From Cellulophaga sp. BC115SP (GTDB lineage: Bacteria; Bacteroidota; Bacteroidia; Cytophagales; Spirosomataceae), in NCBI RefSeq assembly GCF_009905545.1, contig NZ_JAAALB010000018.1, positions 62,001 to 126,000 on the forward strand: a stretch of 64,000 bases of DNA, read 5' to 3'. The translations under genes were made by a program, and so were the position numbers. Positions 40,050 to 57,435 of the stretch are shown in pieces; the first letter of the stretch is position 1, and each line of letters starts with the position of its first letter. The notes beneath the pieces were generated by a model. The model ran no database searches, was not told where the DNA came from, and saw only the letters and a list, made by a program, of their open reading frames with translations.

Positions 40050-40125
40050 TTTGTTCGATGATTTGATAATTGGTAGATTGTTACAGTACTACCTTTGAGT
40101 AAAACGCCTCAAAGATTACCGAAAA

Positions 40126-40893
40126 TTAAGCGCTTACTTCAGCAGCGTCAACTTCAGCTTTAATCCAATCGTAACCTCTTTCTTCAAGTTCAAGCGCTAA
40201 TTCTTTTGTACCTGATTTTACGATTCTACCTTTATATAATACGTGTACGTAGTCTGGAACGATATAATCCAACAAACGTTGGTAGTGAGTTACTACGATA
40301 GTTGCGTTGTCTGGTGATTTCAATTTGTTTACACCTTCAGCTACAATACGAAGTGCATCGATATCCAAACCTGAGTCAGTTTCGTCAAGGATTGCCAACT
40401 TTGGCTCTAATACTGCCATTTGGAAAATCTCATTACGTTTTTTCTCACCACCAGAGAAACCTTCGTTCAACGCACGGTTCAACAAAGACTGGTCGATATT
40501 TACGTAAGACATTTTTTGCTTGAACATTTTCAAAAACTGAACTGCATCCAATGGTTCTTCGCCACGGTACTTTCTGATTTCGTTTACAGCAGTTTTCAAA
40601 AAGTTAGTTGTCGAAACACCTGGGATTTCGACAGGATATTGAAATGCAAGGAAGATACCTTCAGCAGCACGTTCTTCTGGAGCCAAATCCAAAAGGTCTT
40701 TGCCAAAGAAATCTACCGAACCTCCTGTAACTTCATAATCTTCGCGACCTGCCAAAACAGAAGCCAAAGTACTTTTACCTGAACCGTTTGGTCCCATGAT
40801 AGCGTGAACTTCACCAGCTTTAACTTCTAAGTTGATTCCTTTCAGAATTTCTTTTTCACCAATTTTGGCTTGTAAGTTATTTATCTTTAACAT
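40126..40893 (-). CDS. sufC: Fe-S cluster assembly ATPase SufC
   Basis: This 255-residue ABC-type ATPase has Walker [10 protein letters not shown] at 34-42, signature [10 protein letters not shown] and Walker [13 protein letters not shown]. It powers the conformational change of the SufBCD scaffold. It is the first visible SUF gene; sufB, which usually precedes it, is not present upstream. A TAATTTTG -7 box at 41021-41028 would give a ~120-base leader. Confidence 0.97.
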
Positions 40894-41020
40894 TTTCTTG
40901 GTAGTGATATTTGACCTATGACAAACGTTGTAGGATTGGCCTCCTCAATCAAAACTTACTGATTATCATTTGAAAGTACACTTTCATCTGTCAGGAGACA
41001 ACACCTATTTAATTTAGGCA

Positions 41021-41028
41021 CAAAATTA
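41021..41028 (-). promoter_or_regulatory. -7 promoter box of the sufCD unit
   Basis: TAATTTTG on the minus strand. A TTTG lies at 41043-41046, but the spacing (14) is shorter than the usual ~19. Confidence 0.4.
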
Positions 41029-41117
41029 ATTATTGGATTTTTCAAATACTATACTTTATTTAGAACAACTCTAAACAAATTGAAAAAGTTTATATTTATC
41101 CACATTTTTCTTAAAAA

Positions 41118-41135
41118 AAATGACGAAAGTCAGTG
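41118..41135 (-). terminator. Short terminator-like hairpin after the cotH-like gene
   Basis: TGAC-TTTC-GTCA followed by eight T on the minus strand. The stem is only 4 bp plus A-T pairs, and it lies ~190 bases past the stop, so it is a weak candidate. Confidence 0.4.
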
Positions 41136-41323
41136 ATTTTTTTTCTGGAATTTTTAAGACTGACATCGGTAAGCTATTTCTTCTGGTTTTTGGTAGGGTA
41201 GTTGAGGGAGGGTTAAAGGACAAAAGTGAATGAGTCAAACTTTGTGCCTTTGTAACTCTATGTCTGTTCACTCTACCACTAAAAAAATACTCCATGCCTA
41301 ATGCCTCCTTGCCTATCCCCTAT

Positions 41324-42958
41324 TTACTGAACCACCACTTTTATCCTATCCACAGGTATTCCACTGAGGTGATAGTCGAGGATATAAATTCCTTGGGGAA
41401 GTTGTTTATTGAATGGTGCTTGATATTCGCCTACAGATTGATTTTCGTTGACTACTTCATGTATCTTTTTTCCTGACAAATCGTAAAGATTAATTTCTAC
41501 TTGACCTTTTAATAATACTTCATATTTGACCTGACTTTGAGAAGATATAGGGTTAGGAAAAATGGTTAAACTTTGTTTAGGCTCAAAAAAGGCTTCTGTT
41601 CCAAGTACAAGCGACTTACTTTGAAATTGTCCATCCAGCCATAAACATCTCGAGCGAATCCAATCTTTCATAAAATTTAATTCATCTTGAAAAGTTGTTC
41701 CAACGTAATAGTTAGGCCATACTTTTGTTCCTAAAACTCCTGGCCATCTTTTAAAATTACGTGCTACCGCAGGAGCAATAATCGTAGCCGTTGAGTCGAT
41801 CCATTGATTGATACGGTCTGTGGATAAAATAGATTTTCGAAGTTCCCCCCAACGAGTAGAAGCTTTGGTTCTAAAATCTTCATCTTGCACGAGTTTTGAC
41901 CACCAAAGAGGAGACAAATAAATGTCGCCCGTTGGAGATGCCAATGCGTTGATTTGATATTGCCAACCTGTAGTTTTGTATCCTTCATAATAATCAGCAT
42001 TGCCATACGCCAAGTTGTAGTCCCAAGCTGGTCCCATTTTTAGGCGAGCATCTTTACTATCTTTATCCTTGTAGAAATACGTACTGAGTCGATAACCATC
42101 AATATTTTTGGTTAGCTCTGTCAAGATAAAATAGTCTACAAAAGAATCCATATCTATCATATTGCGCCAAGCAGCGTCTTTGTCAAGTGCAGTATTGGCA
42201 TAAAGTTCTTTTTCAAAAGTTGTCATCCAGCCTTTGATATAGGTCAATTGTTTGGAGGTTAAATCGGCATACTTGGGATATTCTACCTGAAAAAGTACAC
42301 TTGGTGTCCCAATCGTATTCTTCCAAGACCAAGCAGGCGAACCATTAACCTTATCAATTTTAAGGATATACCCACCCGTGAGTGCATCGCCAGTACTATC
42401 GGTGGTTTTGATGCTAGAAATATTGACTCTATTTTTATCTCTTTTGATTTTTTCCATGACCAAATACAACCCATCATAACGACCATTCAAGGTAATTTCA
42501 CAATAACGAGTACGCGTGGCATATCTACCCATACGATTCGAAATATCATAGGTCAAAGCATCTCGCATAAAGGTTTTATCATTGTAGCTGGCATTGAGTA
42601 CCCAGTCAGATTCTTCGGGCATTCCTAGAAAAGCTATTTTCTGACTTTTTCCTGTTGTATCTGCCCAAAGTTCAAAGCCATAAGGTTTTTTCGGAAAAAA
42701 GTCTTTGGAGGTCGACCCTCTTAGTTCTATTCCCAAATATCCATCGTAACCTGTAGGCGTATCGTTGGGAGTATTTACTCGTCCGTTGCCATTATTAATG
42801 AGTTGTAATGTGCCCAAAATTTTAGGCTCATCGGGGATGGTTGCGCCATTTTTCGTGGTAATTTTCAGGATAGGTAAATTTGATTGGTCGAGGGTTTGTG
42901 CAATAACAAAATGATGACATAATATACCAATGAAGGTTAGAAGGAATAATTTTTTCAT
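41324..42958 (-). CDS. CotH kinase family protein with T9SS type A sorting domain
   Basis: This 544-residue secreted protein has a signal peptide (MKKLFLLTFIGILCHHFVIA). The CotH-like region (~20-420) has GYLGIELRGSTSKDFFPKKP, WVLNASYNDKTFMRDALTYD, GLYLVMEKIKRDKNRVNI and MGPAWDYNLAYG, the last three carrying the kinase-like active residues. The last ~75 residues form a T9SS type A domain (IFPNPISS ... INLYDLSGKKIHEVV ... LPQGIYILDY), so the protein is exported to the cell surface or medium. Bacterial CotH phosphorylates spore-coat proteins; the role here is unknown. The frame extends upstream to 43084, but the ATG at 42958 starts the signal peptide and has a -7 box just ahead. Confidence 0.92.
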   Translation of the reverse strand: MKKLFLLTFIGILCHHFVIAQTLDQSNLPILKITTKNGATIPDEPKILGTLQLINNGNGRVNTPNDTPTGYDGYLGIELRGSTSKDFFPKKPYGFELWADTTGKSQKIAFLGMPEESDWVLNASYNDKTFMRDALTYDISNRMGRYATRTRYCEITLNGRYDGLYLVMEKIKRDKNRVNISSIKTTDSTGDALTGGYILKIDKVNGSPAWSWKNTIGTPSVLFQVEYPKYADLTSKQLTYIKGWMTTFEKELYANTALDKDAAWRNMIDMDSFVDYFILTELTKNIDGYRLSTYFYKDKDSKDARLKMGPAWDYNLAYGNADYYEGYKTTGWQYQINALASPTGDIYLSPLWWSKLVQDEDFRTKASTRWGELRKSILSTDRINQWIDSTATIIAPAVARNFKRWPGVLGTKVWPNYYVGTTFQDELNFMKDWIRSRCLWLDGQFQSKSLVLGTEAFFEPKQSLTIFPNPISSQSQVKYEVLLKGQVEINLYDLSGKKIHEVVNENQSVGEYQAPFNKQLPQGIYILDYHLSGIPVDRIKVVVQ

Positions 42959-42981
42959 AGTTTGAATAGAATAGTTACCCA

Positions 42982-42989
42982 CAAATATA
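42982..42989 (-). promoter_or_regulatory. -7 promoter box of the cotH-like gene
   Basis: TATATTTG on the minus strand matches TAnnTTTG and lies ~25 bases upstream of the ATG at 42958, supporting that start over the longer frame. Confidence 0.5.
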
Positions 42990-43151
42990 GTCAATATTTT
43001 AGCCGAATAGTGATAATCTATCCTGTAGCATCTATTATCTATTAAATATATTTTTAGCAGAATAAAGTCAGTTTTTTTAGGCAAAAAATCGTTTATTTCT
43101 GCACCAAAACCACTTTTTTTATTTTTTCAAAAATAAAAGATGACAAAAGGC

Positions 43152-43218: not shown

Positions 43219-44586
43219 ATGAACTATTTAACTGACGAGCAAGTTGCTCAACTTGCTCCAGACGCTTCTTCTTTAAAAGCAGGACGAGACTTATCACATG
43301 AACCCAAATGGCTCAATTTTCAATCCAATGAACGAGTATTGTGGGGAGAAGTCCAAGGGAGTGGTAAAAACCCTTATCAAACTCAAATTGATTTAACCAA
43401 TACCGCCTTCAAATGCTCATGCCCAAGTCGCAAATTTCCTTGTAAACATGGTTTAGGTTTATTGTTTTTGGTTGCCAAAAAAAATGGCGAAATCTCTTCA
43501 GCCATCGAGGAACCTTCGTGGGTTAGCGAATGGATGAATAAAAGGAGCGCAAAAGTTAATAAACCAGAAGTATCTACCGAAGAAGAAATATCACCTGAAG
43601 TGCTATTAGCACAAGCCGAAAAACAAGCACAAGCAAAAGCCAAACGACAAGAAGAACGCTATCTGAAAGTTCAGAATGGTATTGCAGAACTAGAACTTTG
43701 GCTTAAAGATTTAGTACAAGCAGGTCTATTGACAATTCCTCAAAAAGGTGCGCATTATTTTGAGCGCATGGCTGCTCGATTAGTTGACTCGCAGGCTACA
43801 GGACTTGCAGGATTGGTCAAGTCTTTTAATAAGTTAGATTTCTTTAAAAATGACGACTGGCAAAAAGAATCATTAGAACTCATCTCTAAAATATACTTAT
43901 TGATTGAAGCATTCAATCGACTAGATCAACTTCCTCCACTGGTTCAAGAAGAAGTAAAAGCAAGAATTGGCTGGAATATCCAAACCAAAGAATTACTGGA
44001 GCGTGAAGACATAGAAACCATCAACGATCATTGGTTGGTAATAGGTCGACAAACCACTATAGAAGAAGGTCTGACCATGCAAAAGAACTGGCTCTGGGGG
44101 CTCAAAAGTCAAAAAAATGCCCTAGTACTAAATTTTGCCTTTGGCGGGATGGCCATAGAAACACCCATTTTACCTGGTAGTATTGCACACGCAGATCTGG
44201 CTTTTTATCCTAGTAATACACCTTTGAGAGCTACAGTAAAAAACTATATCTCGACTGTAGACTATCTACCTGAACCTATCTCTGGACTCAGCTCTTGGAA
44301 CGAAGCTCACGCGAAAGCAATAGATATTTTGGCACAAAACCCTTGGACAGATACCGTTCCTTTACTGATTGAGCAAGTATGTATCGTTTTTCATCAAGGA
44401 AAATATTACCTACAAGATGCACACGAGACCATTCTGAAGATTGATTCGACAGTAAGTAACGAGCAAATCTGGAAACTATTGGCTATCACTGGTGGTAATG
44501 CTGTATCACTAATGGTACTTTATCAGTTTGATTCTGTTAGGCCATTGGGTTTAGTTCAAAATTATGAATATCTATTATTGGACTAG
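43219..44586 (+). CDS. SWIM zinc-finger protein (YehQ-like), first gene of cluster
   Basis: This 455-residue protein has a SWIM motif C-x-C-x6-C-x-H at Cys66, Cys68, Cys75 and His77 (FKCSCPSRKFPCKHGLG). SWIM domains bind zinc and mediate DNA or protein contacts. A lysine- and glutamine-rich helical stretch (~125-150) follows; the rest is alpha/beta of unknown fold. Its neighbours (DUF5691, MoxR ATPase, DUF5682, DUF4132 and VWA genes) match those of SWIM proteins such as E. coli YehQ. As first gene of a run of seven it may recruit substrate to the ATPase; that is inference. Confidence 0.88.
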   Translation: MNYLTDEQVAQLAPDASSLKAGRDLSHEPKWLNFQSNERVLWGEVQGSGKNPYQTQIDLTNTAFKCSCPSRKFPCKHGLGLLFLVAKKNGEISSAIEEPSWVSEWMNKRSAKVNKPEVSTEEEISPEVLLAQAEKQAQAKAKRQEERYLKVQNGIAELELWLKDLVQAGLLTIPQKGAHYFERMAARLVDSQATGLAGLVKSFNKLDFFKNDDWQKESLELISKIYLLIEAFNRLDQLPPLVQEEVKARIGWNIQTKELLEREDIETINDHWLVIGRQTTIEEGLTMQKNWLWGLKSQKNALVLNFAFGGMAIETPILPGSIAHADLAFYPSNTPLRATVKNYISTVDYLPEPISGLSSWNEAHAKAIDILAQNPWTDTVPLLIEQVCIVFHQGKYYLQDAHETILKIDSTVSNEQIWKLLAITGGNAVSLMVLYQFDSVRPLGLVQNYEYLLLD

Positions 44587-44651
44587 CCCAACAGCTTAGA
44601 ATTATACTTTAAAAATCAACCTTCGACCAACAATATACCGCTATCGATATT

Positions 44652-46169
44652 ATGTATTGGAGTCACCTAAAAAAAACGGCATTATTGGGCACTACCAAAA
44701 TGCCATTACAGCTTGAGCCATTGCCAGAACCCATACAAAAAGCCCTTGCTGAAGAAAAAAACACAGAGGATCTATTTCTAAAAGCTTCTGCCATGACGCT
44801 TTTGTACGAAAAAGCTGGCACTATGCATGAGAAGGTAACTTTTCCCAATCAGGCATTTTCGGAGACTGAAACCTCTGAGTATAGTTCCAAAAACATTCAT
44901 GCTATCTGGAAAGGCTTTTTGAACGAAGATAAAGTCAACTATTATCTGGTAGAGTATTTACTTCTCCAATGTACACAAAATCAGTTGATTGTACAGGATC
45001 ATCTAATTGTTCCGATTCTGAACAAATTTTTCACAAAATTCAAATCAAAACTATATCCTGTTATTGGCAAAAAAGGACTTTGGCTAACACAATTCAATCC
45101 TGATTGGCAAGATAAGCTTATAGTTGATAATGTATGGACAGAAGGAAAACCCTCTGCTCGAAAGTTATACTTTAGTAAGTTAAGAAAAGAAACGCCCAAC
45201 GAAGCACTGGCGCTTTTGGAGGCTTCATGGAGTTCAGAAACAGGAAAAGATCTTAAAGATTTTCTGAATGAATTCTTTCATCGTTTATCTAGTCAAGACC
45301 TTGATTTTTTGAATAAAGTACACGAAGAGTTAGCCCAAATCAAAAAGCCCAAGGATATTACTTCCGATACGATTAAAATCATTCTTCGCCTAAAGCTAGG
45401 TATTTATGGGTGCGACTGGGCCAATAGCGTTGCTAAGCACATCGTAGATTTGCTTCCTAAGTACTTGGATTCAGAGAAAAAACCTGTAGAAATAGCTACA
45501 TTCTGGGAAGAAACTAAGCTGAGAGAAACCCTCGGAATGCAGCCAATAAGCCCCTATAGAGGTGTTTCTGATGAATTGTATTGGATTTCTGAGACCTTAA
45601 CTTATCTACATCCACAATACATATTCGATTATTTTGACAACGATATACAAAAGCCTATTCAAAAATTTGTAGATACTCCCGAGTCACTATTGCTCAATGC
45701 TTTTTCACAAAGCATGGAACTTGCTACACCTGATCAAATTGATATGTTCCTATCAAGTTGTGACTTTTCAAAATATGCTTGGCATGATTTAATACAATTT
45801 CTCAATTGGGAACGACAAGAAGTTCTTTTGATGAAAAATGATTCTATTGATCTTGCGATACTTAAAGATTTCGTCTTATTAAATCCGCATCAAGAATATT
45901 CCACAAAATTTTCAACGTACATTTTATCAGTTTTAGCCTCTGTAATTGTTAATCCGCAAACCTTTTACACGTTAATGTACGAGCATGATTTAATGAGTAC
46001 TCTAGGAAGATGTTTTTCAACTCAGCTTCTAAAACAACTTGATAATTACCCTGAACAAATTCAAACCGAGCCGCACAGAAACATGTGGGAACGCTCCGTA
46101 GTAGTTCCTCTAAAATCTTCACTGTATTACAAAAAGATGATTCAAGCGGAATTTTTACAAAAACTATAG
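44652..46169 (+). CDS. DUF5691-type protein
   Basis: This 505-residue protein is recognised by context and general pattern as DUF5691, a family regularly found between SWIM and MoxR genes. It is mainly helical and probably HEAT-like (NEALALLEASWSSETGKDLK; LNKVHEELAQIKKPKDITSD). It ends with NMWERSVVVPLKSSLYYKK. No catalytic motif, signal peptide or membrane segment is visible. It lies 65 bases after the SWIM gene and 47 before the ATPase gene. Its role is unknown; a scaffold is the simplest guess. Confidence 0.75.
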   Translation: MYWSHLKKTALLGTTKMPLQLEPLPEPIQKALAEEKNTEDLFLKASAMTLLYEKAGTMHEKVTFPNQAFSETETSEYSSKNIHAIWKGFLNEDKVNYYLVEYLLLQCTQNQLIVQDHLIVPILNKFFTKFKSKLYPVIGKKGLWLTQFNPDWQDKLIVDNVWTEGKPSARKLYFSKLRKETPNEALALLEASWSSETGKDLKDFLNEFFHRLSSQDLDFLNKVHEELAQIKKPKDITSDTIKIILRLKLGIYGCDWANSVAKHIVDLLPKYLDSEKKPVEIATFWEETKLRETLGMQPISPYRGVSDELYWISETLTYLHPQYIFDYFDNDIQKPIQKFVDTPESLLLNAFSQSMELATPDQIDMFLSSCDFSKYAWHDLIQFLNWERQEVLLMKNDSIDLAILKDFVLLNPHQEYSTKFSTYILSVLASVIVNPQTFYTLMYEHDLMSTLGRCFSTQLLKQLDNYPEQIQTEPHRNMWERSVVVPLKSSLYYKKMIQAEFLQKL

Positions 46170-46216
46170 CCAATACCAAATTATAACACATAGTTAGATT
46201 ATAAACCTTCAACACC

Positions 46217-47296
46217 ATGAACGTATTACGTCAACACGCAGAAGAGCAGTTTGCTCATGAATTAGAAGAAATTAGTAAACAAGATAAAAATGTCCGTCCA
46301 ACCAGTTGGAATCTTTCACCACAGGCGGTTGTACACTACCTAATAGGTGGCAAACTACCGAATGGGTTTGAGGTATCACCCAAATATATCGGTAATCGTC
46401 GCTTGATGGAAATCGCTGTAGCCACTCTTACCACCGACCGAGCGCTACTATTATATGGATTGCCCGGAACAGCCAAGTCATGGGTAGCAGAGCATTTGGC
46501 AGCAGCGATTTCGGGAAATTCAACATTGCTCGTACAAGGTACGGCTGGAACCAGCGAAGAAGCCATTCGTTATGGTTGGAATTATGCCAAATTGTTGGCA
46601 GAAGGTCCAAGCGAAAATGCCTTGGTAACCACTCCAATGATGCAGGCGATGCGCACAGGAAAAATTGCCAGAATTGAGGAATTAACACGTATCACTGCCG
46701 ATGTTCAAGATACTTTGATTACTATTTTATCTGAAAAAACACTCCCTATTCCAGAGCTAAATATGGAAGTGCAAGCAGTAAGGGGATTTAATGTGATTGC
46801 CACAGCCAACAACCGTGACAAAGGAGTAAACGAATTGTCAGGTGCCCTAAAACGCCGTTTCAATACAGTGATTTTACCTGTTCCTGAAACGATGAAGGAA
46901 GAGATAGCAATTGTACAACATCGTGTATCTAGCTTACAAAAAGCCCTAGAGCTTCCTGCTGAGGCACCTGCTCTAAAGGAAATTCAACGAATTGTAACTA
47001 TTTTCCGTGAGTTACGTGCTGGCGTAACTGCCGATGGTAAAACCAAAATCAAAACGCCATCCAGTACCATGAGTACTGCCGAAGCTATTTCGGTAGTAAA
47101 TAATGGTTTAGCCTTAGCTGCTCATTTTGGTGATGGTCGTCTCAATGCCGAAGATTTGGCTGCTGGTTTGGTTGGTGCTGTGGTAAAAGACCCTATTCAA
47201 GATAAAGTCGTTTGGAATGAATATTTGGAAACAGTCATCAAAACACGTGAAGACTGGAAAGACGTGTATCGTGCCTGCAAAGAGATTGTATTGTAA
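46217..47296 (+). CDS. MoxR-type AAA+ ATPase (YehL-like)
   Basis: This 359-residue protein has one AAA+ module. Walker A is GLPGTAKS at 81-88. The Walker B position reads IARIEELTRI at ~150-159, with Glu154-Glu155 where most MoxR proteins have Asp-Glu. Sensor 1 is in FNVIATANNRDKG (~191-203), and an arginine-finger region is ALKRRFN at 210-216. MoxR ATPases remodel or insert cofactors into target proteins together with VWA partners; the VWA gene ends this cluster. The AAATANNR sensor and Glu-Glu Walker B are probably subfamily traits; hydrolysis is still likely because the catalytic Glu is kept. Confidence 0.92.
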   Translation: MNVLRQHAEEQFAHELEEISKQDKNVRPTSWNLSPQAVVHYLIGGKLPNGFEVSPKYIGNRRLMEIAVATLTTDRALLLYGLPGTAKSWVAEHLAAAISGNSTLLVQGTAGTSEEAIRYGWNYAKLLAEGPSENALVTTPMMQAMRTGKIARIEELTRITADVQDTLITILSEKTLPIPELNMEVQAVRGFNVIATANNRDKGVNELSGALKRRFNTVILPVPETMKEEIAIVQHRVSSLQKALELPAEAPALKEIQRIVTIFRELRAGVTADGKTKIKTPSSTMSTAEAISVVNNGLALAAHFGDGRLNAEDLAAGLVGAVVKDPIQDKVVWNEYLETVIKTREDWKDVYRACKEIVL

Positions 47297-47356
47297 TATG
47301 TACAATATCTATTCATGACAAACTGAATCTTTAACGCTTAAATCTGCACGCAAAAT

Positions 47357-49645
47357 ATGCCCTTAACAATTTTGGGAATACGACATCATGGGGTAGGTTC
47401 AACCCAAAATGTAATCGAAATGTTGGAGCAAATCCAACCAGATATGGTACTGGTTGAAGGCGCTCCAGAACTAGATTCGATTATTTCTTGGATTGGTAAT
47501 GAACAGCTCAGACCTCCCGTGGCTGTACTTGGTTACAACGTAGACGAACCCCAACAGGCTACCTTCTACCCTTTTGCAGAATTTTCGCCTGAGTGGCAAG
47601 CTATTCTTTATGCCAACAAACGCCAAATTCCAGTAAGAATGTTGGATCTACCTTTAGCCATAGGTTTTCAACAAAAGAAGAATGAACAAAGAACGGAAAA
47701 TGATATTGTAGAAGAAACCAATATTGAAGATAACGATATCGAAGATTCCAAGCCATTAGAGCCCCTGCATATTCATCAAGACCCTATTTCTTACTTTGCA
47801 GAAATAGCAGGTTATGACAATTCGGAACTTTGGTGGGAGCATCACTTCGAACATAACTATATAGCAAATAGTGCCAAAGAGCATTTTGATGCCGTAATGC
47901 TCATGATGACGGAACTTCGCCGTGCCAATATTCCATCGGTATTGGATGAAGAAAATATTGCCCGTGAAGCCTATATGCGTGAGATTATCCGAAAAGCTCA
48001 AAACGAACTTTTCGGCAATATTGTAGTCGTTTGTGGTGCTTGGCACGCTCCTGCGTTGCTCGATGTGGACAGCACCGCCAAAGCGGATACGAAACTCTTA
48101 AAGTCTTTACCCAAAACTAAAATCAAAGTAGCCACCACTTGGATTCCATGGACAAACGGGCGTTTATCCATGTACTCAGGATATGGTGCAGGTATTACCT
48201 CGCCAGGTTGGTATGACTTTTTGTGGAAAAAAGGCAAAAGAAAAGATTTTGCCATAGAATGGCTCAGCCTTGTAGCGAGACTTTTCCGAAAAAAGCAAAT
48301 TGATATATCTACAGCGCACGTTATTGAGGCATTTCGTTTGGCTGAGACTTTAACTAGTTTACGTGGACTTTCTCGTATTGGCTTACTCGAACTCAACGAA
48401 GCTACCCAAACAGTAATGTGTATGGGCGATACAGTTTTATTGAGTTTGGTCAAAGATAAACTTATCGTGGCCAATCGCTTGGGCGAAGTTCCCGACGAAT
48501 TACCGAAAGTTCCTCTTCAACTTGATTTTGAAAAGTTGGCAAAAAGTAACCGTTTGGCACTTACAGCCGAAAAGAAAGATTATGAATTAGACCTTCGAAA
48601 AGAGCTAGATCTCAATCGAAGTAAAATGATTCACCGACTGGATATTTTGGAAATCAATTGGGGACAAAAAGTCTATGCCCGTAGCAAAGGAACATTTAAA
48701 GAAGCATGGACCTTGTCATGGAAACCCGAAATGTATTTGGCTTTGATTGATAAAGCAGTTTGGGGCAACACGCTTGAAGATACTTGTACAAAATACTTGA
48801 TTGACACTAGTCAAAAATCACAAAATATTGGAAAAATTGCTGAGAACATCCAAAAGGCAATACCTGCCGAGCTGTTTGTAGCAATTGAATTTTTGCTTAA
48901 AAAAATTGACGAAGTTGCTGCCATTTCTGCCGATATCTTAGACTTAATGACCGCGCTTAAGCCTATGGTGGAAATCAGCAGATATGGAAACGTTCGCAAA
49001 ACTGATTTAGGTGCAATTCGTCAGATTGTGGATGCTCTCCTCACCCGTATATGTATAGGTTTGCCAAATGCCTGCTACGGACTCGATGATGACAATTCGC
49101 GAAAAGTATTCGAGCATATCAAACAAGTAAATGAAGCAACTAAGCTAATCGAAAATGAAGACTTGACACAGTTATGGTTTGATACGCTTAAAAAACTTTT
49201 GACCAAAGATGGCGTTCATGGTATCATTCAAGGCTGTACTTGTCGCTTATTACTTGATGTTCAAGAAATTAATACTGAAGAAACCGCAGAGCGATTTGCT
49301 TGGGCTTTGTCACAAGGACAAGAACCCAATTTTTCGGCAGGTTGGCTCGAAGGATTCCTCAAAGGAAGTGGTATGATTTTAATCTACGACCATGTCCTAT
49401 GGAACCTCCTCTACAAATGGGTAGCTGAGCTACCTCAGGAATACTTTACGGAGCTATTACCCATTTTACGACGTACTTTTTCACAATTTGAACCTAACGA
49501 ACGAAAACAACTAGGAGAAAAAGCCAAAGCTGGCACTATTATTCAATCACTAGAATTTACCACTATTAACGAAAATTTTAACCCTCAATTCGCCGAAAGC
49601 GTACTGCCTATGTTAGAAACGCTTTTGGGTATTAATCCACTATGA
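47357..49645 (+). CDS. DUF5682-type protein (YehM-like)
   Basis: This 762-residue protein has an N-terminal alpha/beta domain with GIRHHGVGSTQNVIEML (His10, His11), DMVLVEGAPELD (Glu35) and VVCGAWHAPALL (His230). Paired G-x-x-H motifs plus a glutamate resemble the TIKI/TraB/EreA superfamily of putative metallo-hydrolases, but this link is by eye only. The C-terminal ~500 residues are mostly helical. An acidic insertion of ~30 residues lies at 107-135. The gene overlaps the next by 4 bases (ATGA), showing translational coupling. Its function is unknown. Confidence 0.82.
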   Translation: MPLTILGIRHHGVGSTQNVIEMLEQIQPDMVLVEGAPELDSIISWIGNEQLRPPVAVLGYNVDEPQQATFYPFAEFSPEWQAILYANKRQIPVRMLDLPLAIGFQQKKNEQRTENDIVEETNIEDNDIEDSKPLEPLHIHQDPISYFAEIAGYDNSELWWEHHFEHNYIANSAKEHFDAVMLMMTELRRANIPSVLDEENIAREAYMREIIRKAQNELFGNIVVVCGAWHAPALLDVDSTAKADTKLLKSLPKTKIKVATTWIPWTNGRLSMYSGYGAGITSPGWYDFLWKKGKRKDFAIEWLSLVARLFRKKQIDISTAHVIEAFRLAETLTSLRGLSRIGLLELNEATQTVMCMGDTVLLSLVKDKLIVANRLGEVPDELPKVPLQLDFEKLAKSNRLALTAEKKDYELDLRKELDLNRSKMIHRLDILEINWGQKVYARSKGTFKEAWTLSWKPEMYLALIDKAVWGNTLEDTCTKYLIDTSQKSQNIGKIAENIQKAIPAELFVAIEFLLKKIDEVAAISADILDLMTALKPMVEISRYGNVRKTDLGAIRQIVDALLTRICIGLPNACYGLDDDNSRKVFEHIKQVNEATKLIENEDLTQLWFDTLKKLLTKDGVHGIIQGCTCRLLLDVQEINTEETAERFAWALSQGQEPNFSAGWLEGFLKGSGMILIYDHVLWNLLYKWVAELPQEYFTELLPILRRTFSQFEPNERKQLGEKAKAGTIIQSLEFTTINENFNPQFAESVLPMLETLLGINPL

Positions 49646-52593
49646 AAAATTTAGAGAAATTAGAAATCTTTATCGAAAATCTAAAAAAATCAGTTCATGC
49701 ATACGCCCGTGTTGAAGCTGATAGCTGCATCGAATATCTGAGAAGTGACGACCCTACGATTCCAGTACCTCCTATACAAAACTACTGGGTAATCACAGGG
49801 TTTGAGCAGTTATTGGGCAATGTAGACGAATGGGATGAATGGGAAGAAAAAATCATGGCATTGATGACTCAACCTTCCAATTGGAATGAACCTCAAGCAT
49901 TGGGATTTTCCACCTACGGTGGCTTTCGTGATTTTACTGATTGGGTCAGCAAACAAATACTACGTAGCAAGAATAATCTTGACATAACCAAAATCCTCCA
50001 ACTAGCAAGTCGTTTTATTACCGATGAAGCATTCCTAATTTACTTTTTAAATACAAAGACATTTTTTGTTGATGGAAACCAAAATTTGACAAAATGGGGA
50101 AATTATCTTTTGCTCAATAATCAACACTATAATCCAATTTTGCTGAATACCAGTATAGAAGCTAATGAGAAAACCCTCCTAGTAATGTTTCTTTTATCCT
50201 CTAAGCAAAATGAATTTTTATCGTCAACAATCGACTCATTGATTGTTGATGATAATATTTTGAATATCACCGATTTGCTACTTAATGAGGATTCAACAAA
50301 ATATGAACCACTCATCTTCACTAAATGGCAAAACCTAAAGAATAGTTATATATTCATTAAACTGTATGAATTTTTGGCGAACAAGTTTCCCGAAAAATAT
50401 AACCCACTTGAATTAGATGCCATTCAAAAAACACTTACCATCGAATTGAATTGGTGTAGTACCAACTATGCCAGTCTTTACTGTTATGGGCCTGAGCCAA
50501 TCACTGTGTTAGCTCACTGCTTTAATTTTTTGGTAAAAAAAGAAACTCAGGAAACTAAAAAACGATTCCAAAGCGAACTACAAAATATCTACTCAATACC
50601 TGTTGACCTTTTAGTAGCGATAGCAAACGAATTGAAAGAAGATGGTTTAGATATTTTAATAGAAGCCCTACAACAAGACCCGAATAATCTTTACTGGAAT
50701 GATAAAGATTTCTTCAAAAAATACTTCAAAATCGTTGAAGCACTTGATTTCCGCTCACACCAAGAATATTTCTGGGATTTGAGTAAAAACAAATCGAAAG
50801 AGTTACGAAGATTAGGTGCTGGTCTATTGAGTAAATTAGGCAATGAAGCCATTCCAAACGCTTCTGAACTAACAAAGTCTAAAAAGTTGGAGGCTAGACA
50901 AATGGGCTTTCTGATTTTATCCCTTATCAATACCGATGAATCAAAAGTCATTTTGGTTGAACTTTTGGAACAAGAAAAGAATGATGAGGCTCGTGATATT
51001 ATTCTGGAATCATTGCGTCACTTAGTTAGTAAACAAAATTCTTTAGCAGAAATTAATACCAAAATAGCATTTGCTCAAAAAAGAGCTAAGCTCAATGCTC
51101 CATTAACGCCATGGCTCGACGAAAAGGTGCTTCCTCCACTATACTTCAAAGATGGTACCCAGCTAAGCGTTGAGGCGTTTCGTTTCTTACATTATCGTAT
51201 GAGTCGTGCCAAAGAAATTCGCCTCGATATAGAAGCAAAATTACTTATTGAGCATTTGGATACTGACAAAAACTACGAATATGCCGCTAGTTTATTGGAT
51301 GCCTATTTTGTCAATGGAGCACTAGCTAATTTCAAATTCTGTTTGACGCTCGCTAGTATTTTTGGAGATACTACTGTCATCCGTCAATTGCGTAATAAGG
51401 TGCAAGAATTTGCCGATAACAATCGTGGTAAAATGGCGGAATATGTCGTAAAAGCATTAGCGCTCAATGGCGGAACACAGGCATTGCGTCATGTGGAGTA
51501 CTTTTCTAGAAAATATAAAAACAAAAATAAAAACGTTGGCGCTGCCGCAACCGAGTCGTTTACCATTGTTGCCGAAGAGCTGGGAATATCTCCATACGAT
51601 CTAGCCGACCAAATCATTCCTGATTTTGGCTTTGAAGGATTGTTTAAAACCTTTGAAGTTGAAGGACAAGAATATCGTGCCTTTGTGAATCAAGATTTTA
51701 AATTCCTTTTCTTAAATGAAGATAACAAAACGCTAAAAGCGCTTCCTAAAGGAACGCCAGTGGATTTACAAGAGGAATTTAAAGAGATAGGAAAGGAAAT
51801 CAAAGACATCGTGAAATCTCAAACACCTCGTTTGGAGCAATACCTCATTATTCAACGTCAATGGGATACTGAAAAATGGCAGAGCCTTTTCCTGAATAAC
51901 CCCATTATGTTTGTCTATGCAACGAGGTTAATTTGGGGTGCTTTCAACGATCAAAAGCAATTGTTATTTACCTTCAAAGTGCAAGAAGATCAAACGTGTA
52001 TCAACCAAGATGGTGACGAGGTAACGTTTGAAGAAGGACAAATGATTCGAATGGTGCATCCACTAATTCTTGAGACGGAGACCATCAACTATTGGTCAGA
52101 AGTATTAGAGGATGAAGGGCTATCACCTGCATTTTTACAACTCAATCGTGAGGTAGTCAATTTTGACCCTGCGGATAAAGGAACCCTTATTTCCTCAAAG
52201 TACAGAGGCATTGAAATGTCAGGATACACCTTCGTGTCTGTACTTGAAAAAAGAGGCTGGTTTAGAGGTTCGGTTGTCGATGCAGGCTTCATCAGCAATT
52301 ATTACAAAAACTTTGCTGAAGAAGGTATCACAGCCATTATTACACAAGAGGGAGATATATGTGTAGGTTATCTGGACTCCATCGGAGGAATTGGCAACCT
52401 TATGTTTGTAAAATACGGTAGTGTCGACTTTGGAAGTTATACATATGATGAACCAGGGCACACAAACGACCCAAGACTAATTCCTTTTGAACAAATCTCC
52501 CCTATCATTTACTCTGAGGTAATGGCAGATATGCAGTTTTTCAAAGAAAATGATACTAGACAAAACAGCGGTAATTTAAATCCATCTCTATAA
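49642..52593 (+). CDS. DUF4132 (MolR/YehI-like) protein, paralogue 1
   Basis: This 983-residue protein has HEAT-like helical repeats in the middle (~385-465; GAGLLSKLGNEAIPNASEL) and a C-terminal DUF4132 module (~640-975; YLIIQRQWDTEKWQ, MFVYATRLIWGAF, QDGDEVTFEEGQM, RMVHPLILETE). DUF4132 is the family of E. coli YehI/MolR, once linked to molybdate regulation but without known biochemistry. It has no signal peptide or membrane segment. It overlaps the DUF5682 gene by 4 bases. Its final 61 shared bases are identical to the paralogue downstream (see findings), and it carries a five-residue extension after that point. Confidence 0.85.
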   Translation: MKNLEKLEIFIENLKKSVHAYARVEADSCIEYLRSDDPTIPVPPIQNYWVITGFEQLLGNVDEWDEWEEKIMALMTQPSNWNEPQALGFSTYGGFRDFTDWVSKQILRSKNNLDITKILQLASRFITDEAFLIYFLNTKTFFVDGNQNLTKWGNYLLLNNQHYNPILLNTSIEANEKTLLVMFLLSSKQNEFLSSTIDSLIVDDNILNITDLLLNEDSTKYEPLIFTKWQNLKNSYIFIKLYEFLANKFPEKYNPLELDAIQKTLTIELNWCSTNYASLYCYGPEPITVLAHCFNFLVKKETQETKKRFQSELQNIYSIPVDLLVAIANELKEDGLDILIEALQQDPNNLYWNDKDFFKKYFKIVEALDFRSHQEYFWDLSKNKSKELRRLGAGLLSKLGNEAIPNASELTKSKKLEARQMGFLILSLINTDESKVILVELLEQEKNDEARDIILESLRHLVSKQNSLAEINTKIAFAQKRAKLNAPLTPWLDEKVLPPLYFKDGTQLSVEAFRFLHYRMSRAKEIRLDIEAKLLIEHLDTDKNYEYAASLLDAYFVNGALANFKFCLTLASIFGDTTVIRQLRNKVQEFADNNRGKMAEYVVKALALNGGTQALRHVEYFSRKYKNKNKNVGAAATESFTIVAEELGISPYDLADQIIPDFGFEGLFKTFEVEGQEYRAFVNQDFKFLFLNEDNKTLKALPKGTPVDLQEEFKEIGKEIKDIVKSQTPRLEQYLIIQRQWDTEKWQSLFLNNPIMFVYATRLIWGAFNDQKQLLFTFKVQEDQTCINQDGDEVTFEEGQMIRMVHPLILETETINYWSEVLEDEGLSPAFLQLNREVVNFDPADKGTLISSKYRGIEMSGYTFVSVLEKRGWFRGSVVDAGFISNYYKNFAEEGITAIITQEGDICVGYLDSIGGIGNLMFVKYGSVDFGSYTYDEPGHTNDPRLIPFEQISPIIYSEVMADMQFFKENDTRQNSGNLNPSL

Positions 52594-52669
52594 ATGGGCT
52601 ACAAAATACTCTCGAGTAATATTCTTCCGTATTATTACACATTTTGCAACGTGGCTTTTCTCATTTTAA

Positions 52670-52701
52670 AGCTTACCTTGACTTTTTCACCAAGGTAAGC
52701 T
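52670..52701 (+). terminator. Hairpin between the two DUF4132 genes
   Basis: AGCTTACCTTG / CAAGGTAAGCT with a 10-base loop, perfectly paired, in the 210-base gap. There is no T tract, so it may attenuate or protect the transcript rather than end it. Confidence 0.45.
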
Positions 52702-52803
52702 CTATTAGTCATAAGAATTTAATACCACAAACAAAAAATTTAACCATCAACGCACCGAAAGTGTATCGACTATTTTGGAGGTACTTTTAGGCATTACACA
52801 ATC

Positions 52804-55776
52804 ATGAAAAATACTACAGCACTTGAAACGTACATCGCCAACACCAAAGCTCTACCCTTGTATCAAAAGGAAACACAAGAATATGACAAACTCCTCAACT
52901 ATCTAACTGGTTATACGGATGAAGTTCCTGAAATTAATGTACGCAGCATAGAAATACTTTCCCTAGAAACTCTTCTGGGATCTATTGAAGAATGGGATGA
53001 ATGGGAAGAGAGAGTAGTAGGATTGAGACATACAAAACATTGGTTTTTATCTATTCCAAAAGCCAATAGCTACATGCCTAAACCTGAGTACTTATTTCAA
53101 GCATTATTATCATGGGCAAATGCACAGATTTCTGAAGATACTCGTCTATCCAAAATAGATAGCATCCTTACTAAAATAAATAACTACACAAACGACTTTG
53201 GAGGATTGATATATTGGATGTCAAAAGTTCAACCTCTTGTAGTTAATGATAAGCCTACAGCGCTAGGTGAATATGTTTTAGAAAATACAGATGCTAATTT
53301 GATTTCCCTAAATGAGGCATTTTCTTTGGATTATCACTCTTTACTTGATTTGTTTCTTGTTAAAAGACCAGATTTAATAGAACTTTTCTTGAAAGATTTT
53401 CATCGAAATCTTGTTCCTCAGGCTAACTTATGGAGTAGAAACCAAGACAGCAAGCTAAAAAATGCCTTTAAATATATAGAAACCATTCTAGCTTATCAGG
53501 GAGAGAAATATGGTTCCATATTCGAGAATATATTTCATAAAACAGAAGACAATGAGTCTAAATGGAAACTGTTTCAATTGTTACTAAAGTATATACCCAA
53601 TCAAATTCAAACTTATCAAGAATCATATTACAATGATATTTTTGAAAAGCAAGCACAGTATTTTATCAATAGTAATCATTATTTGATTGATGAATATTCC
53701 TCAAAATCTTATTTGAGGATTTGTATACCTTACTTATCAAACTTGAACCCAGCAAAGTATAAGCCCATAATCAGTGATAGACTCTTCAAGATGTCAAAAC
53801 ATCATTTCTTACCTTACGATGTTATTGACGTAATTACTGAAATATTGGATAGAGAGGATGTTGAAAAAATTTACACCAATATGGTACAGTTCAATCGATT
53901 TTCTCCCAAACAATTACAATATTCATTGAATTTAGTCCAAAAATTAGATTACCACACGTACTTACCACAGATTTGGGACATCAGTAAAATAAACTCTATA
54001 GAGCTTAATCAAGTAGCAGGTAAGTTTTTAGCAATACTTGGTAATGATGCTATTCCGCAAGCAACAGAACTTCTAAGTTCTAAAAAGGCCTATACAAGAC
54101 AAATGGGAATGAGTCTACTAGAATCATTGGATACTGTAGAGACCAAAAAGATAATCTATAACTTCTTGGAACTGGAGCCTAACGATGATATTCGAGATAG
54201 TTATACCGAACTACTGAACCAGATGATTAGTAAACCATGTACAATTGAGGAAATTAGGGCTAAAATTGAATTTGCGGAAAAAAGAATAAAGCTATCGACT
54301 CCACTAGCGCCATGGTTGGATGACAAAGAAATATCTCCTTTATACTTTAAAGATGGAACTCCTTTGAATACTAATGAGATAAGATTTTTGTACTATCGCA
54401 TGAGTAGAATCAAAGAAATTGGTTTTGACTTTGAAGCAAAATTACTACTAGAACATATCGATATGAATCGAACAAACGAATATGCAAGTAGTTTGATTGA
54501 TACATTTTTTAGCAATTGGGCACCTGCCAATCTTAAGTTTTGTCTAACCTTAGCAAGTACAATGGGTGATGCCAGTGTTATTCGTACACTTAGAAAAAAG
54601 GTATTTGAGTTGACTGAAAGTAATCGTGGAAAAATGGCGGAGTACGTAGTAAAAGCCATTGCTCTCAACGGAAGCACGCAAGCCCTACGTGAAGTTGAAT
54701 ATCTTTCCAGAAAATTTAAGTCTAAGTACAAAAACATTGGAAAAGCAGCTATAGAGGCATTCGAGCTAGCCGCTGAGGAACTAAACATGGACCCTTATGA
54801 CCTAGCCGATCAAATTGTTCCTGATTTTGGGTTTGAAGGATTGTTTAAAACCTTTGAGCTAGATGGTCAAGAATATAGAGCATTTATTAATCATGATTTT
54901 AAAATCTTATTTTTAAATGAAAGCAATAAAACACTAAAGTCTTTACCTAAAAGCGCCCCTCTTGAATTACAGAATGAATTTAAAGAAATGGGGAAAGAAA
55001 TAAAGGAGCTTGTAAAATCTCAAACCTACCGTTTGGAGCAATATCTGATTATTCAGCGTCAGTGGGAAACTGAAAAATGGCAGAACCTCTTCCTCAATAA
55101 CCCCATGATGTTTGTTTATGCAACCAGATTGATTTGGGGAGCATACAACGAGCAAAAACAATTGTTATTTACTTTCAAAATACAAGAAGATCAAACCTGT
55201 ATCAATCAAGATGGTGATGAGGTAGAATTTGAAAATGGGCTTTTTGTAAGAATTGTACATCCTATTGATCTTACCAAATATACTATTGACTATTGGTCGA
55301 AGACACTTAAAGATGAAAACCTACAACCTGCATTTTTACAGCTAGATCGCAATGTTTTTAATTTCAACGAAAAACATAAAGGATACAAAATTTCTACGAA
55401 TTATAGAGGCATAGAGATGTCTGCTTATAGGCTCTTATCCTGTCTTGAAAAAAGAGGGTGGCTCAGAGGCTCGGTGGTAGATAATGGACGTATTGGCAAT
55501 TACTATAAGGATTTTGCTCAAGAAGGTGTTTCAGCGGTATTTGCTCAAGAAGGAGAAATTGGTATTGGTTTTATGGAAGGTAATGCAATAATAGGAAATA
55601 TGATGTTTGTCAAAAGTGGCAGCATTAAATTTCGTACTGGTCCAGATGAACCTACACATGAGAGTGACCCAAGACTAATTCCCTTTGAACAAATCTCCCC
55701 TATTATGTACTCAGAGGTAATGGCAGATATGCAGTTTTTCAAAGAAAATGATACTAGACAAAACAGCGGTAATTAA
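52804..55776 (+). CDS. DUF4132 (MolR/YehI-like) protein, paralogue 2
   Basis: This 990-residue protein is collinear with paralogue 1. Shared segments include LLGSIEEWDEWEER near residue 58 and the long C-terminal module (PDFGFEGLFKTFELDGQEYR; YLIIQRQWETEKWQ; MFVYATRLIWGAY). The N-terminal third is strongly diverged between the two, while the C-terminal ~350 residues are highly conserved. This fits a variable recognition part and a fixed functional part, but that is inference. It lies 210 bases after paralogue 1 and 5 bases before the VWA gene. Confidence 0.85.
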   Translation: MKNTTALETYIANTKALPLYQKETQEYDKLLNYLTGYTDEVPEINVRSIEILSLETLLGSIEEWDEWEERVVGLRHTKHWFLSIPKANSYMPKPEYLFQALLSWANAQISEDTRLSKIDSILTKINNYTNDFGGLIYWMSKVQPLVVNDKPTALGEYVLENTDANLISLNEAFSLDYHSLLDLFLVKRPDLIELFLKDFHRNLVPQANLWSRNQDSKLKNAFKYIETILAYQGEKYGSIFENIFHKTEDNESKWKLFQLLLKYIPNQIQTYQESYYNDIFEKQAQYFINSNHYLIDEYSSKSYLRICIPYLSNLNPAKYKPIISDRLFKMSKHHFLPYDVIDVITEILDREDVEKIYTNMVQFNRFSPKQLQYSLNLVQKLDYHTYLPQIWDISKINSIELNQVAGKFLAILGNDAIPQATELLSSKKAYTRQMGMSLLESLDTVETKKIIYNFLELEPNDDIRDSYTELLNQMISKPCTIEEIRAKIEFAEKRIKLSTPLAPWLDDKEISPLYFKDGTPLNTNEIRFLYYRMSRIKEIGFDFEAKLLLEHIDMNRTNEYASSLIDTFFSNWAPANLKFCLTLASTMGDASVIRTLRKKVFELTESNRGKMAEYVVKAIALNGSTQALREVEYLSRKFKSKYKNIGKAAIEAFELAAEELNMDPYDLADQIVPDFGFEGLFKTFELDGQEYRAFINHDFKILFLNESNKTLKSLPKSAPLELQNEFKEMGKEIKELVKSQTYRLEQYLIIQRQWETEKWQNLFLNNPMMFVYATRLIWGAYNEQKQLLFTFKIQEDQTCINQDGDEVEFENGLFVRIVHPIDLTKYTIDYWSKTLKDENLQPAFLQLDRNVFNFNEKHKGYKISTNYRGIEMSAYRLLSCLEKRGWLRGSVVDNGRIGNYYKDFAQEGVSAVFAQEGEIGIGFMEGNAIIGNMMFVKSGSIKFRTGPDEPTHESDPRLIPFEQISPIMYSEVMADMQFFKENDTRQNSGN

Positions 55777-55781
55777 GTACT

Positions 55782-56975
55782 ATGACAGACGAAAAAGAAT
55801 CACTCCGACGCTGGCGCCTTATGTTAGGAGGCGATGAAGCTGATGGCACCCAATATCAACTGTCTGATTTAGACAGTCAGATTGATGCTGCCCTCTCGGC
55901 TCTGTATGACTTTGAAAGAAAACGAAGCTTTAATTATGGACAAAATGGAGGAGGCGCAGGAGGAAATAGTAGCTCCAGTCCTTCTGTGGCACGTTGGTTA
56001 GGGGATATTAATAAATATTTCCCTCAGTCGGTAGTGCAAGTGATGCAAGGTGACGCCTTAAAGCATCCTGAGTTACAGCAAAAGCTCATGCTAGAACCAG
56101 AAATTTTGGAAAAAGCTACGCCCAACGTGCATTTAGTTGCCAGTTTAATGGAACTAGGCAAATTAATCCCTTCCAAAACCAAAGAAACTGCTCGTAGAGT
56201 AGTGCAACAGGTAGTAGAGGTGTTAATATTAAAATTAGAGCAAAAAACGATACAAGCTATTACAGGCGCTATCAACCGAAGCGTTCGTAATAATCGTCCT
56301 CGCTATAATGAGATAGATTGGAATACAACTATTCGAAAAAACCTCAAAAACTATTTGCCCGAATACAAAACCATTATTCCAGAAATTAGAGTAGGTTTTG
56401 GACGTAAAAACAAACGATCTTTAAAAGATATAGTTTTGTGCCTTGATCAAAGTGGTTCAATGGGCGCCTCTGTTGTCTATTCAGGCATATTTGGTGCAGT
56501 TATGGCTTCGTTACCACAAGTAACAACCCAAATGGTGGTATTTGATACTGAAGTGGTTGATTTGACAGAAGATTTGAAAGACCCTGTAGACTTGCTCTTC
56601 GGAGTACAACTTGGTGGAGGTACCGACATCAATAAAGCTCTCGGATATTGTCAAGAAATTATTACGAAGCCCGACGATACCATTCTGATTATGATTACGG
56701 ATTTGTATGAAGGAGGTAATCAAGCACAGATGCGCAAACGTATAGTGGAGCTCAGTGAGTCGGGGATTCAAATAATTTGTCTGCTAGCTTTAGACGATTC
56801 GGGTGCACCTTCTTTTGACAAAGACAATGCTAAATTTCTCTCCAACGTGGGAGTTCCTGTCTTTGCTTGCACACCAGATTTGTTTCCAGATATGATGGCA
56901 GCTGCCATTAACCGACAAGATATGAGTACATGGGCAAGCCAAAATGACATCGTTCTGAAAGGATCAAATTCATAA
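55782..56975 (+). CDS. VWA (CoxE/YehP-like) protein, last gene of cluster
   Basis: This 397-residue protein has an N-terminal helical region, a Gly/Ser-rich linker (~54-67) and a C-terminal VWA domain. The full MIDAS set is present: Asp222, Ser224 and Ser226 (CLDQSGSMGAS), Thr281 (LGGGTDINKA) and Asp307 (MITDLYEGG). VWA proteins of this type act with MoxR ATPases as metal-dependent adaptors that bind the target. It starts 5 bases after the second DUF4132 gene and ends the run; a hairpin follows. Confidence 0.92.
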   Translation: MTDEKESLRRWRLMLGGDEADGTQYQLSDLDSQIDAALSALYDFERKRSFNYGQNGGGAGGNSSSSPSVARWLGDINKYFPQSVVQVMQGDALKHPELQQKLMLEPEILEKATPNVHLVASLMELGKLIPSKTKETARRVVQQVVEVLILKLEQKTIQAITGAINRSVRNNRPRYNEIDWNTTIRKNLKNYLPEYKTIIPEIRVGFGRKNKRSLKDIVLCLDQSGSMGASVVYSGIFGAVMASLPQVTTQMVVFDTEVVDLTEDLKDPVDLLFGVQLGGGTDINKALGYCQEIITKPDDTILIMITDLYEGGNQAQMRKRIVELSESGIQIICLLALDDSGAPSFDKDNAKFLSNVGVPVFACTPDLFPDMMAAAINRQDMSTWASQNDIVLKGSNS

Positions 56976-57435
56976 GCAATCGAAACGCCACCTAGTTGGT
57001 AGGTGGCGTTATAAGCTAAAAATCAAGCCTTTACAGGATAGAGTTTTTCTCCATAATTAAGAGTGTCAACTTTAATATTTGAAGCCCTTTACCTTCAAAT
57101 AATTTCTACAAAAAAAAAACATAGCAAAATACACTCTGGCACGGTTTTAGAGCAAATAGTCTAAAATTGCCGCACTTCAATTTCGTACTAATTTTAGTAT
57201 GCTTATCCTCTATTATCCTCACTCATTCAAAACTCCTGCGTATAGTCATAATTTAAGCCTCAATGGCATAATTTTTGCTCCTTTTTAAGCAAGCAACCGC
57301 CAGTTGTATTCAAAAAATCAAAATTTCCTAAGTAGAAAACATCTCCGCCAACCAAAGAGCAATCTCTCGATTGTGACTTTGACTGTATTTCTATGTGGGC
57401 TGTAAAAGGTGTTTAATTCAATTAATTTTATGCTC
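56976..57435. other. Intergenic region upstream of the adhesin-like gene
   Basis: 460 bases. After the cluster hairpin it holds a perfect 7-bp inverted repeat TTTTAGA / TCTAAAA at 57145-57166, a possible operator. No gene or clear -7 box was recognised. Confidence 0.45.
56984..57010 (+). terminator. Hairpin ending the SWIM-MoxR-VWA cluster
   Basis: AACGCCACCTA / TAGGTGGCGTT with loop GTTGG, directly after the VWA stop. The stem is strong, but there is no T tract on the plus strand. Confidence 0.6.

Follow-up and report, generated by a model that had tools for sequence, protein, structure and literature searches.

The locus examined here raises the question of what kind of machine is encoded by seven adjoining plus-strand genes in the 7.08-Mb genome of Cellulophaga sp. 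BC115SP, namely those for a SWIM zinc-finger protein, a DUF5691 protein, a MoxR AAA+ ATPase, a DUF5682 protein, two DUF4132 proteins and a CoxE-type VWA protein. The genes lie in a 64,000-nucleotide stretch of contig NZ_JAAALB010000018.1, hereafter the window. An earlier note on this DNA had read them as a MoxR–VWA remodelling machine that might serve metal-cofactor insertion or defence. That reading was partly supported: the machine is of the YehL type, but a likeness of DUF5682 to the TIKI/TraB hydrolases had been missed, and this likeness suggests a hydrolytic machine. The interpretation set out below, for and against which we would put about equal weight, is that of a MoxR/VWA remodelling machine of the YehL type, with DUF5682 at its core as a TIKI-type hydrolase.

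By motif and profile comparison, residues 1–300 of DUF5682 look like a TIKI/TraB-like domain. The motif of this superfamily was reportedly defined by Sanchez-Pulido and Ponting in 2013 as two GxxH-type motifs with a glutamate after the first, and the window protein contains G7-x-x-H10, E34 and G227-x-x-H230. Across 14 diverse DUF5682 members from five phyla, R9, H10, E34, R203, G227 and H230 were invariant and G7 nearly so, and across 23 TraB proteins the same could be said of G48, H51, R244, G266 and H269, with E77 nearly invariant. All five invariant TraB columns and the near-invariant glutamate have DUF5682 counterparts in the same order and at similar spacing (His to Glu, 26 in TraB versus 24 in DUF5682; Arg to Gly, 22 versus 24). 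DUF5682 therefore shares with the TIKI/TraB/PrgY/GumN family (PF01963) the ordered series GxxH, Glu, Arg and GAxH, together with profile similarity over the second motif block, but differs from these proteins in its length of 762 residues, its large extra C-terminal part and its encoding beside an AAA+ motor. The His/Glu centre of the superfamily is described in a passage of PMC6254334 as hydrolysing esters and peptides, and the same passage has some TIKI-fold proteins without the catalytic residues.

When the N-terminal domain of DUF5682 was aligned with a profile of 43 TraB proteins using hhalign, a score of 42.4 was obtained, with a probability of 68% and a pairwise E of 4.9e-5. The highest scores after shuffling of columns were 25.8 in 100 trials and 24.0 in 300, so that none equalled the match, and seven other profiles, including the reversed domain and the C-terminal part of DUF5682, scored 12.8–19.6. 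The match was obtained from non-Bacteroidota rows alone (43.2) and from Bacteroidota rows alone (38.6); with the query direction reversed, it fell to 28% and a score of 35. The DUF5682 profile comprised 37 rows, of which hhalign kept 30, the broken copy at locus L064 being left out. For TraB, 47 loci were considered and 43 used (L080, L125, L131 and L136 were dropped for the length of their open reading frame (ORF) or the lack of a central one, and L084 was not taken); the Ere set held 31 proteins (L091 and L163 left out as partial, L092–L093 as below cut-off) and the ChaN set 16 (L110–L113 left out as weak). In hmmscan searches at E ≤ 1, TraB_PrgY_gumN was found in 2 of the 14 members (best E 0.014) and was the only Pfam family besides DUF5682 to match more than one of them; the window protein itself gave no PF01963 match at this threshold. 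The Pfam DUF5682 match begins at residue 20, past the first GxxH, which may be why the link was overlooked.

Several results weigh against a TIKI-type assignment. The TraB match was significant only in the third round, with the enlarged set of 43; with smaller sets (18 proteins, one of odd length, and then 17) it was not. The confident alignment covers only the 57 columns of the second motif block, the first GxxH and E34 coming into register only in a permissive alignment, and matches to the Ere and ChaN profiles were not significant. Neither of the two TraB_PrgY_gumN matches is significant taken singly. The AlphaFold2 model of the full-length protein was poor (predicted local distance difference test score, pLDDT, 41), as was that of the domain (pLDDT 53, predicted template-modelling score 0.56), and the best Foldseek match of the domain model (E 0.008) had a template-modelling score of 0.24 and a root mean square deviation of 18 Å. 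At two of 38 surveyed loci (L012 and L022), moreover, DUF5682 occurs without the other genes of the cluster in the stretch examined. As a control on known kin, the profile method recovered ChaN–Ere (95%) but missed TraB–ChaN (2.4%) and TraB–Ere (1.1%), and is therefore not sensitive within the superfamily. The top two Foldseek matches of the low-confidence model in the PDB (E 0.008 and 0.11) were to Tetrahymena complex IV chains of 384 and 383 residues, a complex that, in an excerpt of PMC10060162, includes a TraB-family accessory subunit; the matched chains may be that subunit, and the model-based match can be taken as a hint only. PDB sequence searches with the DUF5682 and TraB profiles and with one TraB protein gave no meaningful match.

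In a tree of MoxR proteins, 33 cassette rows, YehL among them, fell on one side of a branch with support of 96/96, which upholds the link to a yeh-type MoxR–VWA machine made in the earlier note; the 12 outsiders were RavA and 11 other MoxR/AAA_5 proteins, the root was set at the midpoint, and the program gave a long-branch warning. Within this group the proteins from E. coli, Streptomyces and Fusobacterium branch together (98/93). The window MoxR thus groups with YehL, and the same cassette carries a VWA gene with an intact metal ion-dependent adhesion site (MIDAS). Alignments also bore out the intact SWIM ligands, Walker A and full MIDAS claimed before: all of 25 rows have C66, C68, C75 and H77, GxPGTAK is invariant, and D222-x-S224-x-S226 is present in 28 of 28. 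To this a refinement can be added, as the Walker B motif is non-canonical, with R152-x-E154-E155 having Glu for Asp. R-x-E-E was read in all 35 cassette MoxR proteins (E154 and E155 in 29 of 29 aligned rows), whereas all 12 outsiders compared read D-E. On these sequences, the Asp-to-Glu exchange is a marker of the YehL group. ATPase activity, metal-dependent binding by VWA and zinc binding by SWIM are predicted from the intact motifs. In PMC3893208, YehL is one of seven named MoxR subfamilies, and MoxR proteins are chaperone-like and thought to mature specific protein complexes; RavA–ViaA of E. coli is a like pairing of MoxR and VWA partner in that source, but the Walker B motif of RavA is canonical (FLDE) and the protein lies outside the YehL group.

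Home-made iterated hidden Markov models (HMMs) were run on 38 distinct loci anchored on DUF5682 and the counts repeated by script; L008–L011, which lie on the same contigs as L053, L050, L048 and L046, were excluded. All these counts presuppose a DUF5682 gene and, beyond the Bacteroidota, draw on plasmid records and E. coli. The order SWIM–DUF5691–MoxR–DUF5682–VWA on one strand was found at 30 of the 38 loci in four phyla, so the neighbourhood is conserved also beyond the Bacteroidota. These 30 comprise the window, 16 further genomes of its family and L013, L015, L020, L021, L023 and L064 in the Bacteroidota, and loci from Rhizobium (2), Methylosinus, Methylobacterium, Deinococcus, Nonomuraea and Nocardia elsewhere. 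SWIM and DUF5691 are fused in one gene on a Hymenobacter plasmid (L015), and broken frames occur in L017, L049 and L064. Besides L012 and L022, the exceptions are L024 (DUF5682 and VWA genes on opposite strands), L025 (MoxR–DUF5682 only), L056 (MoxR, then a YhcG-type nuclease gene, then DUF5682), L063 from Fusobacterium (a 637-residue gene without significant match in place of DUF5691), L019 (Streptomyces) and L014 (E. coli). DUF5682 was found in 7 of 247 Bacteroidota genomes, in 18 of 150 genomes of the window's family (window genome included) and, in a set of 72,556 plasmid records, on 36 from hosts such as Escherichia, Rhizobium, Streptomyces and Hymenobacter. The yehL–yehQ region was found in 5,301 E. 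coli genomes out of 5,426, and 5,162 genomes have 80% or more of its length.

The gene content had been likened to the yehI–yehL–yehM–yehP–yehQ set, and the E. coli K-12 locus (yehH–yehI–yehK–yehL–yehM–yehP–yehQ) confirms this, with YehL as MoxR, YehM as DUF5682, YehP as VWA, YehQ as SWIM and two DUF4132 genes, yehH (a pseudogene) and yehI. It differs from the window in having its DUF4132 genes first and its SWIM gene last, in the two CxC..CxH motifs of YehQ and in lacking a DUF5691 match; the DUF5691 search gave no significant match at the Streptomyces and Fusobacterium loci either. YehQ was considered as a SWIM–DUF5691 fusion, which was rejected. The description of DUF5691 as an added gene cannot be kept, because it is present in the cassette order at the 30 loci: DUF5691 is a normal part of the cassette and the E. 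coli yeh operon is a variant.

DUF4132, by comparison, is optional. Eight of the 30 cassettes carry it, every one from the window's family and always between DUF5682 and VWA, where the window has its two genes; L046 has a second DUF4132 between MoxR and DUF5682, and in E. coli and Streptomyces DUF4132 genes lie upstream of the cassette genes. The duplicated MolR-like component of the earlier note is real in this genome and in one other of the 8 DUF4132 cassettes, and it has a parallel in E. coli. The two window proteins are 13–30% identical in 100-residue blocks over residues 1–400, 49% in the next block and 60–82% from residue 501. Against the two nearest species, protein a is 54–82% and 18–44% identical in 50-residue blocks over residues 1–300 but, beyond residue 350, 76–100% and (up to residue 950) 78–96%. 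Among 10 full-length rows, only 20 of 225 strongly conserved positions fall in the first 400 of 983 residues; full-length rows were used for this count, as four of an earlier 14-row set lacked the N-terminal half. A weak HEAT_2 match at residues 381–459 of protein a was below cut-off. In residues 1–300, the single DUF4132 of L050 is 33–45% identical to window protein b versus 21–39% to a, and beyond them it is strongly like a, a pattern that hints at shuffling of N-terminal halves. Over this same region the nonsynonymous rate (dN) is raised, the synonymous rate (dS) runs from 0.6 to saturation and their ratio is below 0.5 where computable, which is better explained by replacement or an old divergence than by positive selection acting in place. 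In the L050 cassette, from Flectobacillus sp. BAB-3569, the DUF4132 match changes frame for its final part (L050:4837-4938). The DUF4132/yeh region carries a transposon in one E. coli lineage (in a passage of PMC9334617), and a Deinococcus DUF4132 protein belongs to an operon upregulated on DdrO depletion (in an excerpt of PMC8533742).

In the mechanism that we propose, the MoxR ring and its VWA partner would spend ATP to open or reposition a client protein chosen by SWIM, DUF5691 and, where present, DUF4132, and DUF5682 would cleave this client, or free a blocked part of it, using the His/Glu/His centre found in TIKI-fold enzymes. Where a second DUF4132 differs in its N-terminal half, a broader range of clients would be accepted. 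Put forward more tentatively is the general form of this proposal, in which an AAA+ MoxR–VWA motor would be dedicated to a TIKI-fold protease as an ATP-driven proteolytic or de-blocking machine, E. coli YehL–YehP–YehM included, with exchangeable DUF4132 subunits that determine the clients and alter specificity through recombination or diversification. No description of such a pairing of motor and enzyme was found in the open-access full-text literature; nor was any open-access paper found that mentions DUF5682, that combines two of DUF5682, DUF5691, DUF4132, MoxR and SWIM zinc finger, or that combines three of MoxR, VWA, TraB, TIKI and YehM, and no title or abstract among the open-access full-text matches listed concerns YehL function. 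The cluster would thus be a widespread unstudied bacterial protein machine with the hydrolase likeness as its first testable function. The predicted catalytic residues for testing are H10, E34, R203 and H230 here and H11, E35, R175 and H202 in YehM, so that an orphan region carried by almost all E. coli becomes testable in a laboratory strain.

A conflict or anti-phage system, with DUF4132 sensing variable targets and DUF5682 as effector, is an improbable alternative, although the patchy occurrence in the Bacteroidota and in the window's family, the plasmid copies, the hypervariable N-terminal half of DUF4132 and the nuclease gene within L056 would all suit it. The cassette's divergence would suit it too, with a median dS against Flectobacillus longus of 0.76 for 6 cassette genes versus 0.29 for 16 other window genes and, against a second strain, of 0.91 versus 0.51 (27 other genes); DUF4132 b, having no orthologue in the compared strains, was left out. 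The adjoining Ig-like gene, however, is as diverged as the cassette. PADLOC gave no family for five of the seven proteins and only weak matches for MoxR and VWA, the best (E 2.3e-4) covering just 33 residues of the ATPase. Of 37 candidates from viral contigs, not one was a relative, and the E. coli region is near-universal. These three results weaken the defence reading of the earlier note. A weaker point, made with no control set, is that among the matches listed (25 of 105 families) no PADLOC family occurred in more than two of 103 flanking proteins (from 105, two repeats of L059 being dropped and the flanks of GC-rich unannotated loci excluded). MoxR-vWA ternary conflict systems, as presented in a passage of PMC7159879, likewise consist of a MoxR–VWA core and further proteins, but none of the seven window proteins has a Pfam VMAP, iSTAND, FtsH or beta-propeller domain, bpMoxR reached 23.4 bits against a cut-off of 27, and the VWA protein has no fused effector domain by Pfam.

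The other two alternatives keep the motor and dispense with hydrolysis. In the first, the cluster would be an activase resembling the chelatases or CbbQO/NorQD: a metalloenzyme would be matured by MoxR together with the CoxE-type VWA protein, the other proteins would be scaffolds, and DUF5682 would belong to those members of its fold that handle metal or do not hydrolyse. The strong VWA_CoxE match (5.9e-48), the maturation role ascribed to MoxR proteins, the SWIM zinc site and urease accessory genes about 13 kb from one Hymenobacter cassette are in keeping with this. Chelatase- and CGN-type models nevertheless stayed below cut-off (GvpN, 33.1 bits versus 266.8; Mg_chelatase, 12.5 versus 20.3), and CbbQ and NorQ models gave no match among the window proteins. 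No recurrent cofactor or target gene was seen in the annotated neighbourhoods inspected, a weak argument as most other neighbours are unannotated. With catalytic-type residues of DUF5682 invariant in 14 members, we think an activase unlikely. The same invariance, of the motif histidines and glutamate across five phyla, makes it very unlikely that the cluster is a regulated stress-response chaperone whose TIKI-like fold serves for binding only, as the chaperone-like nature of MoxR proteins and the TIKI-fold proteins lacking catalytic residues would allow.

The layout was as first described, seven plus-strand genes with short gaps and one overlap (successive gaps of 65, 47, 60, -4, 210 and 5 bases; Table 1). 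Pfam HMM searches upheld the family names, with SWIM at 1.6e-4 (21.6 bits; cut-off 19.6), DUF5691 at 4.8e-33 over the N-terminal half only, AAA_5 at 4.1e-36 for MoxR, DUF5682 at 1.2e-243 and DUF4132 at 1.2e-36 (a) and 2.3e-36 (b). The stable hairpin in the 210-base gap is possibly a terminator or attenuator, so cotranscription of DUF4132 b with a is not assured; that behind the VWA gene probably marks the end of the transcription unit. Bacteroidota promoters are of another type than sigma-70, and a scan for sigma-70 promoters, which may not be the host's type, found 45 against a shuffle mean of 43.6, no excess.

Table 1. Positions in the window of the cassette genes, the proposed domain and two hairpins
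Feature	Position	Strand	Details
SWIM zinc-finger protein, 455 aa	43219..44586	+	ligands C66, C68, C75, H77 at 43414-43449
DUF5691 protein, 505 aa, fast evolving	44652..46169	+	
MoxR AAA+ ATPase, YehL group, 359 aa	46217..47296	+	Walker A 46457-46480; Walker B 46670-46681
DUF5682 (YehM) protein, 762 aa, proposed TIKI/TraB-superfamily hydrolase	47357..49645	+	
Proposed TIKI/TraB-like domain of DUF5682, residues 1-300	47357..48256	+	GxxH G7-H10, E34, R203, GAWH G227-H230
DUF4132 protein a, 983 aa	49642..52593	+	variable N-terminal ~350-400 residues, conserved C-terminal half
Hairpin, 11-bp stem, in 210-base gap between DUF4132 genes	52670..52701	+	-15.6 kcal/mol, z -5.4
DUF4132 protein b, 990 aa, tandem paralogue of a	52804..55776	+	
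CoxE-type VWA protein, 397 aa	55782..56975	+	MIDAS D222-x-S-x-S226 at 56445-56459, T281, D307
Hairpin, 11-bp stem, 3' of VWA gene	56984..57010	+	-20.2 kcal/mol, z -5.9

Among the other cassettes, the VWA gene of the Methylosinus plasmid is split over three broken frames (L017:17220-18388), and the Hymenobacter radiodurans plasmid copy has DUF5682 and VWA in several frames (L064:11986-15425), in a region with protein accessions in common with L015, where both are intact. Three tandem ORFs of 505 residues lie between MoxR and DUF5682 at L059:4467-9050, identical over their first 50 residues, the only part compared. The gene at L056:10073-11146 encodes a YhcG/DUF1016 PD-(D/E)XK nuclease and is flanked by the genes for MoxR and DUF5682, the Hymenobacter cassettes (L015, L064) are likewise followed by a PDDEXK nuclease gene, and a type I restriction (HsdR) gene (L020:2121-5279) and a Dam methylase gene (L063:4020-5810) each lie near a cassette.

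In the window, whose DUF5682 protein is 91% identical to its F. longus (Bacteroidota) counterpart, sufD, sufC and a CotH-like gene with a type IX secretion sorting signal adjoin the cassette (38733-43084). Their dS against F. longus is 0.01–0.06, compared with the median of 0.29 for the 16 other genes, as if they had been recently exchanged. Directly 3' of the cassette stands a large Ig-like gene (57409-60987) with only a weak NCBIfam match, the product of which we take to be an Ig-like-repeat secreted protein; it is 79–80% identical to the two nearest species, whereas most other non-cassette window genes compared are 93–100%. The low dS of sufC, sufD and CotH had suggested that the cassette was replaced as a whole at a fixed locus, a case that weakened when more genes were included, the Ig-like neighbour being diverged as well. 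In G247, a member of the genus that lacks the cassette, an empty site could not be defined, because apart from CotH the flanking genes used for comparison do not lie beside its CotH-type gene. An arginine-deiminase-like gene follows at 61901-63334, and as a homologue also follows the cassette of a more distant genus member (L059), its place appears to be old in the genus.

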